64,000 nt of DNA from Actinobaculum sp. 313 (GTDB lineage: Bacteria; Actinomycetota; Actinomycetes; Actinomycetales; Actinomycetaceae). The notes under the pieces were generated by a model. It had not been told where the DNA came from and did not search any database. It saw nothing but the letters and a program-made list of their open reading frames with translations. A program made the position numbers and the translations under genes. The stretch covers positions 2,356,001 through 2,420,000 of the forward strand of contig NZ_CP029033.1 in the NCBI RefSeq assembly GCF_003073475.1, read 5' to 3'. The stretch's first letter is position 1, and each line of letters starts with the position of its first letter. Below, in pieces: positions 45,922 to 52,004 of this stretch.

Positions 45922-46430
45922 CGCGTTTCCTTCCTTAAAAGAGCGATGTGTACGCCGCAAGCTCGGCGCCGCGGCGCGAACATCTCCTATTGTCTCCGAA
46001 ATAACTGGCTGTTATCCATGAATTACGTCCCGGACGTGGCCCAAACAATGTGTCCAGCCCGTCACAAAAGGCGAGAAGTTGCCACTCTCCTCACCTTCTG
46101 CCCAATGGAATGCGATAGGGGCCACATTTGCTCCAGTTTGCTCCAGCGGCGCATGATCGCCTGCACACACCTATTCGACCGATTGCCGGTAGATACCCCT
46201 CCAACGCCCGACCTACTGCGATGCGCTGCGAGTTCCCTCTCTGACCAGGTACTTTCGCCGATAAGGATCCGCGACTGATTCGCGGCTATCTCCGGTGTGG
46301 CCGGGGAAGTCCACACCTGGTTTCACGCGAGCCGAAACGGGTCCACAGGTGCCATTACGGTCCCCAGAGGTGAAGCACGACGCACAATTGAGGATTCCCA
46401 GCGCTTTCCCATGCGTGTATTCTCCTCTTT
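45922..46430. other. 509-bp divergent intergenic region
   Basis: Separates pckG (minus) from the first LppM-like gene (plus) and must carry both promoters. No repeat, ORF with coding character or unambiguous boxes seen. CACACACCTATTCGACC near 46166 is a short unassigned motif. Confidence 0.35.
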
Positions 46431-47351
46431 ATGACGCATAACCATCGGCGCATGCGCCGGATCACTATGTTTACAGCACTTACTGCTGGGCTTGCCTTGG
46501 CTGGTTGTCAAGGCGATCTCGGCTTCACTATCTCCGAAGACGGTGACCTTACCACGGCCTTCGAGTTCGTTGACGACGAAGGCTTGATACAAGACGGTTT
46601 AACCTGCGATGACCTGAAAGGATACGTGGAATCCGAGCCCCAAATGCAACTGTTCGGCACCATGTCCGTCGAGGATGCGGGCTCCGCCGGAGCCTTTGGC
46701 TGCCGCATGACGTTCGAGGACTCTGCACTTTTGTCAAGCACCTATGTGACCGACAATGGCGATACCTTCACTTTTGAGGTGTCTAAAGCTGAGGGATCGA
46801 TGTTTGAAAGCGCATTCGACCTTGATGAAGTAGGCATTGGATCTCTAGATTTCACCGCGACGGTCACCTTCCCTGGCGATGTGATAGAAGCCTCAGATGG
46901 TGCAACAATTGAGGGAAACACTGTCACATGGCACTCCTATGACGACTTCCTCGAAGGGATCTCTGCTACCGGATACAAAACCGCCGGGCAGAAGGCGTCT
47001 TCCGGCTTCCCGGTGTGGGGATGGATTGTCATCGCGGTCGGCGTCTTGCTGATCGTTGGAATCGTACTCTTCGCGATTCGCCGCGGAAAGAACAAGACGG
47101 GAAACGGCCCGCAGCCAGGCACTCCCGCCTATCCGGGTAACGCGGGAGTGGCAGGACAGCCATACGGGCAGCCTTACCCGGGGCAACCAACGAATACTGC
47201 TGAACAGGCCGCCCCGTATCCGAGCTATCCAGTCCAGCCCGGTTCCTCGGCGCAACAGCCACAGTATCCGACACCCGATCAGGGGATGCCCGGCCAAGGA
47301 TACGGTGGACCGGCGGCGGGCACTACTCCGTACAACCCACCCCGAAACTAG
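46431..47351 (+). CDS. LppM-like lipoprotein with TM helix and Pro/Gly/Gln tail (1)
   Basis: 306 residues. Lipobox LALAGC (Cys about residue 25), then an extracellular domain of about 160 residues with the pattern ISEDGDLTTAFEFVDDEGL and a C-terminal ATVTFPGDVIEASDGATIEGNTVTW stretch, as in LppM-type domains. A TM helix follows (FPVWGWIVIAVGVLLIVGIV, about 187-207), then a basic stop and about 90 cytosolic residues rich in P, G, Q and Y. Lipid anchor plus TM helix gives two membrane attachments. Tandem paralogue of the next gene. Role unknown; mycobacterial LppM has been linked to lipid trafficking. Confidence 0.85.
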   Translation: MTHNHRRMRRITMFTALTAGLALAGCQGDLGFTISEDGDLTTAFEFVDDEGLIQDGLTCDDLKGYVESEPQMQLFGTMSVEDAGSAGAFGCRMTFEDSALLSSTYVTDNGDTFTFEVSKAEGSMFESAFDLDEVGIGSLDFTATVTFPGDVIEASDGATIEGNTVTWHSYDDFLEGISATGYKTAGQKASSGFPVWGWIVIAVGVLLIVGIVLFAIRRGKNKTGNGPQPGTPAYPGNAGVAGQPYGQPYPGQPTNTAEQAAPYPSYPVQPGSSAQQPQYPTPDQGMPGQGYGGPAAGTTPYNPPRN

Positions 47352-47405
47352 TGGTCCAATTCAGCGGGGCCAGTGCCCTAATTCAGATACGAGCAGAGAG
47401 GAACC

Positions 47406-48485
47406 ATGAAACAAGACACGTATCCGAAGGCGCGCTTCGCTGCTCTCGCCATGCTTCTACCTGCCGTTTTGCTTGGCGCCTGCCGATCAGAGAATACCCT
47501 CGAGATTACCGACGACGGCATGCTCAAGATGACGATGGATGTTGTCGACGACGAGGGCTTGATCCTCGGTACAGCGGTGGAGGATTGTGCCAGCTTCATC
47601 GCCATAGCCGGAGACGCAGCTAAAGGTTTACAGGATGCAACAGTTGAGGACATCACGGTTGACGGGCACCCAGGCTGCCGCCTGACAACGGAAGAACCGG
47701 TCGAGTTCGACGGCATCTTCCTCGTTGACAACGGTGACAGCATGACCTTCAACGTCACCCCGGGCCTGATGCCCGATGTCGGAGACGACGCCGACCTACT
47801 GGGGAATACCACATTCTCATTGCGGGTTGTGTTACCGGGAGACATCACCGAGGCTGACAATGGTGGGCAAATTGAAGGCAACACTGCCGTCTATACGGAT
47901 ATCTCCGTGTTGGAAACGGGTTTCTCCGTGACTGGCGGAAAAGGCTCCTTGAGTTCGTCGGCAAGCGCAGACCCCAGCAACACACCCTCAAATTCCACCA
48001 CACCATCTATCACCACGGCGGACCCGACTGTACCGAGTCCGATTGAGCCGCCCGCAACGGAAGACGAAAGTGATTCGGGCTTCCCGGTGTGGGCCTGGGT
48101 GCTGATCGCCGTGGGTGCTATGGCTCTTGCTGGCGGCGGTATCTTCCTCGCTACACGAAAGAAGGGCGGCCCCGGCAACCAGGGCGATTATCCAAGCGGC
48201 CCGGGAACTCCGGGTGGCTCGCCCTATGGCTACGGCCAGCCGGGTCCAGGAGCAGTCCAAGCGGCGCACGGTGCCAATCCCCCTTACGGGCAGGCCAGTG
48301 GTGCCACCGGCTACGGGCAACCAACCCAGGCTTACGGCCAGCCCACGCAGGGCTACGGCCAACAGGCGCAGGCTTCTGGCCAGGCAACCCAGGCACAGGG
48401 CTACAACCAACCGCCGACTTACGGGCAGAACATCTACCCGCCACAAAATGGCGGCCGGGCGGGCGGACAAATGCCCAGGCAATGA
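47406..48485 (+). CDS. LppM-like lipoprotein with TM helix and Gly/Gln/Tyr tail (2)
   Basis: 359 residues. Lipobox LLGAC, then the same domain as its neighbour (ITDDGMLKMTMDVVDDEGL; VVLPGDITEADNGGQIEGNT). A Ser/Thr/Pro-rich extracellular spacer, a TM helix (VWAWVLIAVGAMALAGGGIF) and a tail of GYGQPTQAYGQPTQGYGQQ-type repeats follow. Starts 54 bp after the first paralogue with GAGAGG upstream, so both are likely one transcript ending at the strong hairpin at 48727. The pair arose by tandem duplication and diverged, with the tails diverging most. Confidence 0.85.
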   Translation: MKQDTYPKARFAALAMLLPAVLLGACRSENTLEITDDGMLKMTMDVVDDEGLILGTAVEDCASFIAIAGDAAKGLQDATVEDITVDGHPGCRLTTEEPVEFDGIFLVDNGDSMTFNVTPGLMPDVGDDADLLGNTTFSLRVVLPGDITEADNGGQIEGNTAVYTDISVLETGFSVTGGKGSLSSSASADPSNTPSNSTTPSITTADPTVPSPIEPPATEDESDSGFPVWAWVLIAVGAMALAGGGIFLATRKKGGPGNQGDYPSGPGTPGGSPYGYGQPGPGAVQAAHGANPPYGQASGATGYGQPTQAYGQPTQGYGQQAQASGQATQAQGYNQPPTYGQNIYPPQNGGRAGGQMPRQ

Positions 48486-50317: not shown

Positions 50318-51603
50318 CTATTGTAGTAGGTCGCGACGCACGATGGTCTGCTCACGGTCTGCGCCCACGCCGATCACACTGATGCGACAACCGGAGATCT
50401 CCTCCAGATACAACACATAGTTCCTTGCCGCCTCCGGCAGCTCGTCGAACGTTCTGCAACCGGAAATATCGTCGTGCCAGCCGGGCAAATGCTCGTAGAC
50501 GGGCTGGGCGTGGTGGAAATCCGACTGCGATACCGGAACCTCGTCAACGCGCTTCCCCTCGATCATGTATGCCACGCAAACCGGGATCGTCTCCAGGCCC
50601 CAAGCACATCAAGCTTCGTCAACACAAGGTCCGTGAGTCCATTGATGCGGCTGGAGTAGCGTGCCACCGGCGCGTCATACCATCCACAACGCCGCGGCCT
50701 CCCGGTTGTTACACCGTACTCGCCACCGTGCTCGCGCAACCACCGCCCCGCATCGTCCAGAAGCTCGGTGGGGAACGGCCCTTCTCCCACCCGCGTCACG
50801 TACGCCTTCACAATGCCCACGACGCGGCTGATACGCGTCGGGCCGACGCCGCTTCCGGTGCAGGCACCACCCGCAGTCGCATTGGACGATGTGACATAGG
50901 GGTATGTGCCATGATCGATGTCAAGCATGGTGGACTGTCCACCCTCGAACACCACCGTCTTTCCCGCATCAAGCGCCTGGTTGATCTCCAACGAGGTATC
51001 CGCGACCATCGGCCTGATCCGCTCGGTGTATTCGAGCAACTGGTCTGCCACGGCCTGCGCGTCAACGGCCTCCTCCCCATAGACTTTTGTCAGCATGCCG
51101 TTCTTCGATGTCAGGGCGCTGCTGATCTTCTGCCGCAAAATGGACTCGTCGAAGAGGTCCTGGATCCGAATTCCCACACGAGAAGCCTTATCCGCATAGC
51201 TGGGGCCGATGCCACGCCCGGTCGTCCCTATCTTGCGGGAGCCAAGCGAACGCTCGGAAAGGCGATCAAGTGCACGCCCGTAGGGCGTGATGATATGCGC
51301 GTTGGCAGAAATACGCAGGCGTGAGGTGTCAATTCCGCGCGCCTCCAGTTCGTCGACCTCTTGGAACAGCACGTCCAGATCGACGACGACCCCGTTGCCG
51401 ATCACCGGCACACACCCCGGCGAGAGAATGCCAGAGGGAAGCAAATGCAGCGCAAAGGTGTTCTCGCCAATCACTACAGTATGCCCGGCATTGTTACCGC
51501 CGTTGTACTTCACAACGTAGTCTGCACGTGCTCCCAGCTGATCGGTCGCCTTTCCCTTGCCCTCGTCGCCCCATTGCGCACCGAGGATGATTATCGCGGG
51601 CAT
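50318..51603 (-). CDS. purA: Adenylosuccinate synthetase, apparent frameshift
   Basis: From ATG 51603 (GGAG upstream): [21 protein letters not shown]-loop, [25 protein letters not shown] and GVGPTRI, all canonical. After [10 protein letters not shown] the frame breaks at 50593-50594. One more G on the coding strand gives [20 protein letters not shown], then [20 protein letters not shown] through to the stop at 50318, 428 residues, the normal PurA length. The enzyme converts IMP to adenylosuccinate with GTP. Uncorrected, it would end at 50563. Probably an intact gene with a missing base. Confidence 0.94.
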
Positions 51604-52004
51604 TCGCCTCTCCTTCACGGAACTTGTTCAGCGCCACGGACGGGGCCGCCTACGCGGTCGGCATCGGCCCTCCCCGTAGAGCTGGTACTACCGTCTCAGC
51701 ATAGCCATGAGTCTTACAAAACACAGGTGACGTTATATGCTGGACGGGTTCTTTCCGTTCGGTCCGAGCTGGGAACCGGCGGTTTCGCATTCAAAATCGC
51801 ATGATTTCAGGCATTCGACCTTTGGTCGGCGCCTGCCTGGCAGCGAGGTGCATGCCCGCTATCGAGCGAGGTGCCGGTGTCTATGCGCTACGAGTTGGGA
51901 GCGGTACCACAGCGTGTCCGCGTGAGATTTGTGCCTGAAACAAGCAATTTCCGCCGTCGTCCGCTACGCTAGCGCTGAAACTTTTTTCGCAAGGAGAATC
52001 AGCA
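51604..52004. other. 401-bp divergent intergenic region
   Basis: Between purA (minus) and glgP (plus), so it carries both promoters. AAGGAGA precedes glgP. No repeat or ORF of coding character noticed. Confidence 0.4.

Follow-up and report, generated by a model that had tools for sequence, protein, structure and literature searches.

Two adjacent genes of Actinobaculum sp. 313 encode proteins that start as lipoproteins and end in a long chain of proline, glycine, glutamine and tyrosine, which raises the question of the family to which they belong, how they are placed in the envelope and what such an ending may do there. They are located in the window analysed here, a stretch of 64,000 nucleotides corresponding to positions 2356001-2420000 of one 2.77-Mb contig (NZ_CP029033.1); coordinates below are those of the window unless a contig is given. 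An earlier note had described tandem genes at 46431-48485, each combining a lipobox, an LppM-type domain, a transmembrane (TM) helix and a tail rich in P, G, Q and Y, and the open reading frames (ORFs), the Pfam and fold matches and the relatives all agree with that description; LppM homology, lipobox, TM helix and predicted cytosolic tail are supported by Pfam, the fold match and the comparison with relatives. The features of the pair are listed below.

46431..47351, + strand: lppM-like gene 1 (P0001, 306 aa); Pfam LppM at E 4.6e-10, 40.4 bits, cut-off 27
46431..46508, + strand: gene 1 signal peptide with lipobox LAGC-Q, from sequence; same position in most relatives
46506-46508, + strand: gene 1 predicted lipidated Cys26, from sequence
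46527..46973, + strand: gene 1 LppM domain, residues 33-181; family HMM, and AF2 model with 2nc8 as best match
47013..47090, + strand: gene 1 transmembrane helix, residues 195-220, ending in basic residues; hydrophobicity and model
47079..47348, + strand: gene 1 predicted cytosolic low-complexity tail, 90 aa, rich in P/G/Q/Y/A; composition and low pLDDT
47406..48485, + strand: lppM-like gene 2 (P0002, 359 aa), paralogue of P0001
47406..47483, + strand: gene 2 signal peptide with lipobox LGAC-R, from sequence
47481-47483, + strand: gene 2 predicted lipidated Cys26, from sequence
47499..47936, + strand: gene 2 LppM domain, residues 32-177; family HMM, and AF2 model with 2nc8 as best match
47937..48086, + strand: gene 2 Ser/Thr/Pro-rich extracytoplasmic linker of about 50 residues, from sequence; no counterpart in gene 1
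48087..48158, + strand: gene 2 transmembrane helix, residues 228-251, followed by RKK; hydrophobicity and a low-pLDDT model helix
48156..48482, + strand: gene 2 predicted cytosolic low-complexity tail, 109 aa, with six YGQ motifs; composition and comparison
48311..48363, + strand: degenerate 21-bp tandem repeat in the gene 2 tail, 2.5 copies, 75% matches

Both ORFs are on the + strand, with a spacing of 54 bases. The start codon of gene 1 is uncertain, with an alternative ATG at 46452, and a Shine-Dalgarno-like AGAGAGG lies 5' of gene 2. A TATTCT is found 7 bases 5' of the gene 1 ATG (46418-46431) without a Shine-Dalgarno sequence, an arrangement that looks leaderless when the sequence is read by itself. 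The first charged residue past the hydrophobic core was taken as the start of each tail, and the tail of gene 1 thus overlaps the end of the modelled helix. Upstream of the pair, on the opposite strand, are what we take to be the PEPCK and purD genes, recognised by eye, while downstream there are a gene for an NAD(P)-binding protein and, again on the opposite strand and recognised by eye, presumably purA. A PEPCK-like and/or a PurA-like gene was present in 17 of the 20 neighbourhoods around homologues (19 genomes), and therefore the locus is old and fairly stable. An Rfam scan around the lppM genes gave no element at the gathering score, and a promoter and terminator scan gave no more than expected by chance.

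P0001 exceeds the cut-off of the Pfam LppM model (PF21946) and its locus is the only one in the genome matched by this model; P0002 stays under that cut-off, with 13.0 of the 27 bits. The two proteins match each other within the genome (E 1.1e-18, 32% identity) and are the sole matches in it to a family profile built in this analysis. An LppM match at E <= 0.01 was obtained for 22 of 25 aligned family members, and an NCBIfam scan of the 25 at E 0.01 returned no family name. Searches of PDB sequences were weak, with nothing notable for P0001 alone and 2nc8 first but at E 0.21 for a 25-row profile, and fold searches were therefore run. The AF2 models, made from five sequences each, were of middling confidence (mean pLDDT of 62 for P0001 and 54 for P0002), better in the domain and low in the tails and in the P0002 TM helix. 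Foldseek placed 2NC8 first in both cases, at E 1.5e-6 for P0001, where it was the sole match under 0.001, and at E 6.7e-6 for P0002, where six more chains (OST subunits and M1 peptidases) appeared at E 2.8e-4 to 9.7e-4. VIA-align of P0001 with 2NC8 gave a Z of 9.9 and an rmsd of 4.6 with 143 aligned, FMO proteins being near at 9.2, and identity to 2NC8 over the fold is 15-18%. Because the FMO proteins come that close, LppM membership rests on the fold match, Pfam and the lipobox-domain-TM plan together, while the kinship of P0002 follows from its paralogy to P0001, the family profile and the 2nc8 fold match, and not from its Pfam score. On these grounds, the kinship of both proteins to LppM is nearly certain.

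Because there is a lipobox, one TM helix and a basic stop, the C-terminus is predicted to be cytoplasmic, and the resulting order of lipobox, outer domain, TM helix and tail in the cytosol is a highly probable prediction; the ends of the P0002 helix are rough, given its pLDDT of about 42-45. A sortase-anchored surface protein was also considered and rejected: sortase-type models scored far under their cut-offs with P0001 (8.3 of 65 and 7.1 of 27 bits) and none of them was listed for P0002, both proteins lack an LPXTG before the TM helix, and the tails have 90-109 aa instead of being short and basic.

The presence of a lipid anchor and a TM helix in one chain had been regarded as uncommon, a view that fails within the LppM family. 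Among 52 proteins from 50 loci found by searching the class, a lipobox was present in 50 and a TM-like segment in 51, and the two proteins without lipobox are one cut by a contig end and one that starts after an in-frame stop. LppM-like proteins occur in 69 of 101 Actinomycetaceae genomes and 27 of 36 genera according to the family profile search, and of 296 genomes sampled from the class, the Pfam LppM model matched 69, with 67 above its cut-off. For the 88 family proteins collected from Actinomycetaceae, a lipobox was detected by regular expression in 75, the 13 misses comprising one truncated protein, three boundary or regex misses in which a lipobox is visible on inspection, and nine that truly lack it. 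A hydrophobic segment follows the domain in 87 of the 88, one of them weak, and the tail starts with positive charge in 80 of 87, a count biased by the definition of the tail as beginning at a charged residue. Lipid anchor plus TM helix is the usual LppM plan, found in nearly all the LppM proteins read.

Lipidation of Cys26 in this particular strain is uncertain, unless the state of its lgt gene reflects an assembly error. The genome has lspA in one piece, and its sole lgt match is split into two adjacent pieces in different frames (G000:C1:1363794-1364530, within L207); lgt is whole in the four relatives searched. The purA-like gene of the window (50318-51618, - strand) is also split in two frames, and its two pieces share one frame in the 14 relatives' neighbourhoods (of 14) that hold both. 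With two housekeeping genes broken in this way, assembly indels are the probable cause of both splits, the alternative for lgt being a real loss of lipidation.

As for the tails, P, G, Q and Y account for 61% of the residues in P0001 and 66% in P0002, charged residues for 8% and 6%, and mean pLDDT in ten-residue blocks is 42-50 and 32-45, respectively, as for disorder. Their composition, predicted disorder and aromatic spacing would fit a prion-like or phase-separating low-complexity domain, and "prion-like" is for them a statement about composition. The earlier note proposed that tails diverge between the paralogues while keeping their composition and that domains are conserved. Composition is indeed kept, with a distance of 0.16 between the two tails, but the contrast between domains and tails was too strong: the domains are 36% identical over 143 columns, with P0002 below the Pfam cut-off, and the tails share 42% of their residues in 80 aligned columns, largely through composition. 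The alignment score of the tails was 108, against 73 +/- 11 for shuffled sequences, with one of 500 shuffles as high.

A rich tail was defined as one of at least 40 aa with at least half P/G/Q/Y. Within the 88 non-redundant Actinomycetaceae proteins, an uneven sample of best-match loci plus chosen regions, 46 have a rich tail, 10 have 35-50% P/G/Q/Y, 8 have long but different tails and 24 have tails shorter than 40 aa. Genome G346 alone supplies 18 proteins, among them 12 of the 24 with short tails, and the set includes L066 (cut by a contig end) and L198_2568 (without TM helix), both counted as short, as well as the N-terminally cut L062. Conservation of tail composition in orthologues is partial: it extends to the same-genus orthologue of P0002 and to many relatives, but 42 of the 88 have a short tail or one of different composition, so that its function is not general. 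On a domain tree of 86 rows (L071, L198_2568, L066 and L177 excluded; L014, from another family and outside the 88, included), the rich tail requires 13 changes versus 28.7 in shuffles. Within the LppM family the tail is an accessory part that comes and goes, and its repeated loss or replacement in relatives shows that the core function of the family does not depend on it. YGQ was found in the tails of 2 of the 52 class proteins, both from one genome, and P/G/Q-rich tails without YGQ exist outside the family in L014 (67% P/G/Q/Y) and L149 (50%).

Elsewhere in this genome such tails do not look common. A survey of 464 kb (5 kb of it twice) covered 19 evenly spaced 20-kb stretches, the window and one stretch, L101, chosen for a match. 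Outside the chosen stretch there were 404 picked ORFs, 113 of them with a hydrophobic segment, and five passed as low-complexity, namely the LppM pair and three weak cases, one with two hydrophobic segments and two with none. The survey undercounts, since the ORF picker chose a wrong frame in L101 and so missed a real tailed protein there. At least four tandem DUF4352-like membrane proteins of L101 (G000:C1:128554-134926; L101:3554-9926) carry Gly/Gln/Tyr/Pro-rich N-terminal tails (one of the three scanned passed the Pfam DUF4352 cut-off).

What may these proteins do? According to the accessible part of PMC6151718, M. tuberculosis LppM binds phosphatidyl-inositol mannosides (PIM), and excerpts of two other papers report on lppM mutants, one of which forms clumps and ends up in acidified phagosomes (PMC2936551), while one belongs to the strains that antibiotics deplete most (PMC12802301). 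We tentatively favour, while giving it rather less than an even chance, a reading in which a doubly anchored envelope lipid-binding domain is combined with a disordered tail through which the protein would cluster or draw in partners on the cytosolic side. Both proteins would be exported, lipidated on Cys26 and held again by the C-terminal TM helix, with the LppM domain against the outer leaflet and the C-terminus in the cytoplasm, as the lipobox, the single TM helix and the basic stop suggest. The domain may bind or present an envelope (glyco)lipid, by analogy with M. tuberculosis LppM and phosphatidyl-inositol mannosides. The tail, predicted to be disordered and low in charge, with tyrosines at regular intervals among Gly, Pro and Gln, would most likely make weak multivalent contacts through which the protein clusters or partners are recruited at the inner face. 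The half of this reading that concerns the doubly anchored envelope domain is supported, with lipid binding itself drawn from analogy, and the proposal that the tail clusters the protein or recruits partners comes close to an even chance.

This last proposal draws on the distribution of aromatic residues. They are more evenly spaced than in shuffles in 37 of 43 rich tails, below 0.05 in 27 of the 43 and at 0.024 and 0.026 in the two window tails, bearing in mind that even spacing can arise from simple repeats and that related rows do not count as independent. Six tails are exceptions, and in three of these the spacing is strongly uneven (z 2.9 to 4.1). Proline and, more weakly, glycine are also evenly spaced, with aromatics as the most even class, and Q, A, S and T showed no evenness bias in the rich tails. 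Martin et al., in 2020, are said to have described a uniform pattern of aromatics as one feature of prion-like domains. The available portion of PMC10406433 describes a protein without such uniform patterning. The even patterning makes self-association of the tail plausible, as a prediction from its sequence.

The tail could otherwise be a passive leftover, generated by slippage of GC-rich repeats past the TM helix, with selection keeping only a soluble, uncharged state, which we consider rather unlikely. Its low complexity and the short tandem repeat at 48311-48363 are in line with this, as are its absence or replacement in many relatives, with at least four changes forced by well-supported branches of the domain tree, and the higher dN in the tail than in the domain (0.124 vs 0.045) when P0002 is compared with its same-genus orthologue. 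In that pair, however, dN/dS (here a simple Nei-Gojobori estimate on few pairs) is about 0.27 for the tail (78% identity, 91 columns, 18 gaps) and 0.20 for the domain (90% identical), and values for the tail are below 1 in all the pairs tested (0.12-0.53). Domain and tail gave 0.08 and 0.13 in the G032/G365 pair; across ten pairs from genus g9 the domains ranged over 0.14-1.01 and the tails over 0.21-0.53. The G012/G392 pair, whose tail is basic and not rich, gave 0.03 and 0.12, and since this tail is equally constrained, such constraint is not confined to tails of sticky composition. Tails tend to change faster in amino acids yet are under purifying selection in the pairs tested. A passive origin also sits poorly with the aromatics being the most evenly spaced class and with the survey result of five passes in 404 picked ORFs, allowing for the real tailed protein that it missed.

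Purifying selection would equally be expected if the tail docked a single specific partner in the cytosol, for instance a division, envelope-synthesis or tyrosine-kinase protein, and did not self-associate. PYG and GYG, the commonest tyrosine contexts in rich tails, are repeated motifs, and within genus g9 the sequence itself, beyond composition, is kept at 70-92% identity. Yet no functional operon partner or linked partner gene was found for the pair in the window, where the nearest neighbours are on the opposite strand and metabolic-looking, and we regard docking as unlikely. Improbable by comparison is that the LppM domain is cleaved off to work as a secreted protein, with TM helix and tail as processing remnants, an idea suggested by the title of the paper on the M. 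tuberculosis LppM structure (Barthe et al., 2016), which speaks of "dual localization", and by the potentially cleavable 50-residue Ser/Thr/Pro linker of gene 2, but one in which gene 1 has just 13-16 residues between domain and TM helix (54 in P0002) and selection on the tail would have no evident reason.

Purifying selection together with even aromatic spacing fits the view of the earlier note that the tails may be scaffold or phase-separating sequences. A much bolder version, which we see as a long shot, is that Actinomycetaceae LppM proteins are transmembrane condensate nucleators, in which lipid binding outside would set the local density of cytosolic tyrosine-sticker tails, and these would form condensates beneath the membrane that organise envelope synthesis or cell division, some lineages splitting the job between tail-less lipoproteins and tailed non-lipidated paralogues. 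Strict literature searches gave nothing on disordered tails, YGQ tails or condensates in Actinobacteria, which says little given their strictness. In the library searched, no paper named the LppM family or domain, DUF3153 or PF21946. The same outer domain joined to a constrained cytosolic tail in relatives suggests that signalling or clustering across the membrane is possible, in a family whose mycobacterial mutants, in the excerpts cited above, show changes in antibiotic sensitivity and in their route to the phagosome.

Copies with and without a tail occur side by side in some natural gene clusters, where the role of the tail could be compared. Five genomes of genus g4 (G004, G345, G368, G389 and G406) have LppM clusters with one tail-less, lipobox-bearing copy each, and these five copies group together on the tree (SH-aLRT 97). 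Three of them, G406 (cluster L195), G368 (L196) and G389 (L205), hold nine further copies without lipobox, of which seven carry a rich tail, one an intermediate and one a short tail; as lipobox-less copies keep TM helix and tail, the lipid anchor is dispensable there. In G346 (L187-L194), eighteen LppM-like copies were found in several tandem clusters, two with rich, four with intermediate and twelve with short tails.

Compared with known systems, the window pair shares domain family and predicted fold with M. tuberculosis LppM (Rv2171, PDB 2NC8, Pfam PF21946). Homologues of family f22, which we infer to be mycobacterial and the best of which score top with the Pfam LppM model, have the lipobox, the TM helix and a short cytosolic end. 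In the 22 proteins read, out of 24 f22 genomes with a match, the chain ends 12-27 aa after the TM helix, except for L156 (56 aa), and a Gly/Gln/Tyr tail like that of the pair is absent from all of them. A DUF4349-domain Tat substrate, as described in the accessible part of PMC10924467, also joins a lipobox and a C-terminal TM helix in one chain, but differs in its Tat export and in its domain. The DUF4352-like proteins of L101 likewise have one TM helix and a Gly/Gln/Tyr/Pro-rich tail predicted to be cytosolic, in a mirror topology with the tail at the N-terminus, without lipobox and with another extracytoplasmic domain; their TM helix starts with FPVWGW or FPAWGW in three proteins and MWGW in one. 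The LppM-like protein of Arcanobacterium haemolyticum ET43 (L105), encoded between PEPCK-like and PurA-like genes, has the lipobox, domain and TM helix of the window pair, followed by a PGQY tail of 101 aa in which 12 aromatics are evenly spaced, its linker having 22 residues versus 54 in P0002, and it is the single LppM-like match in its genome, versus two here.
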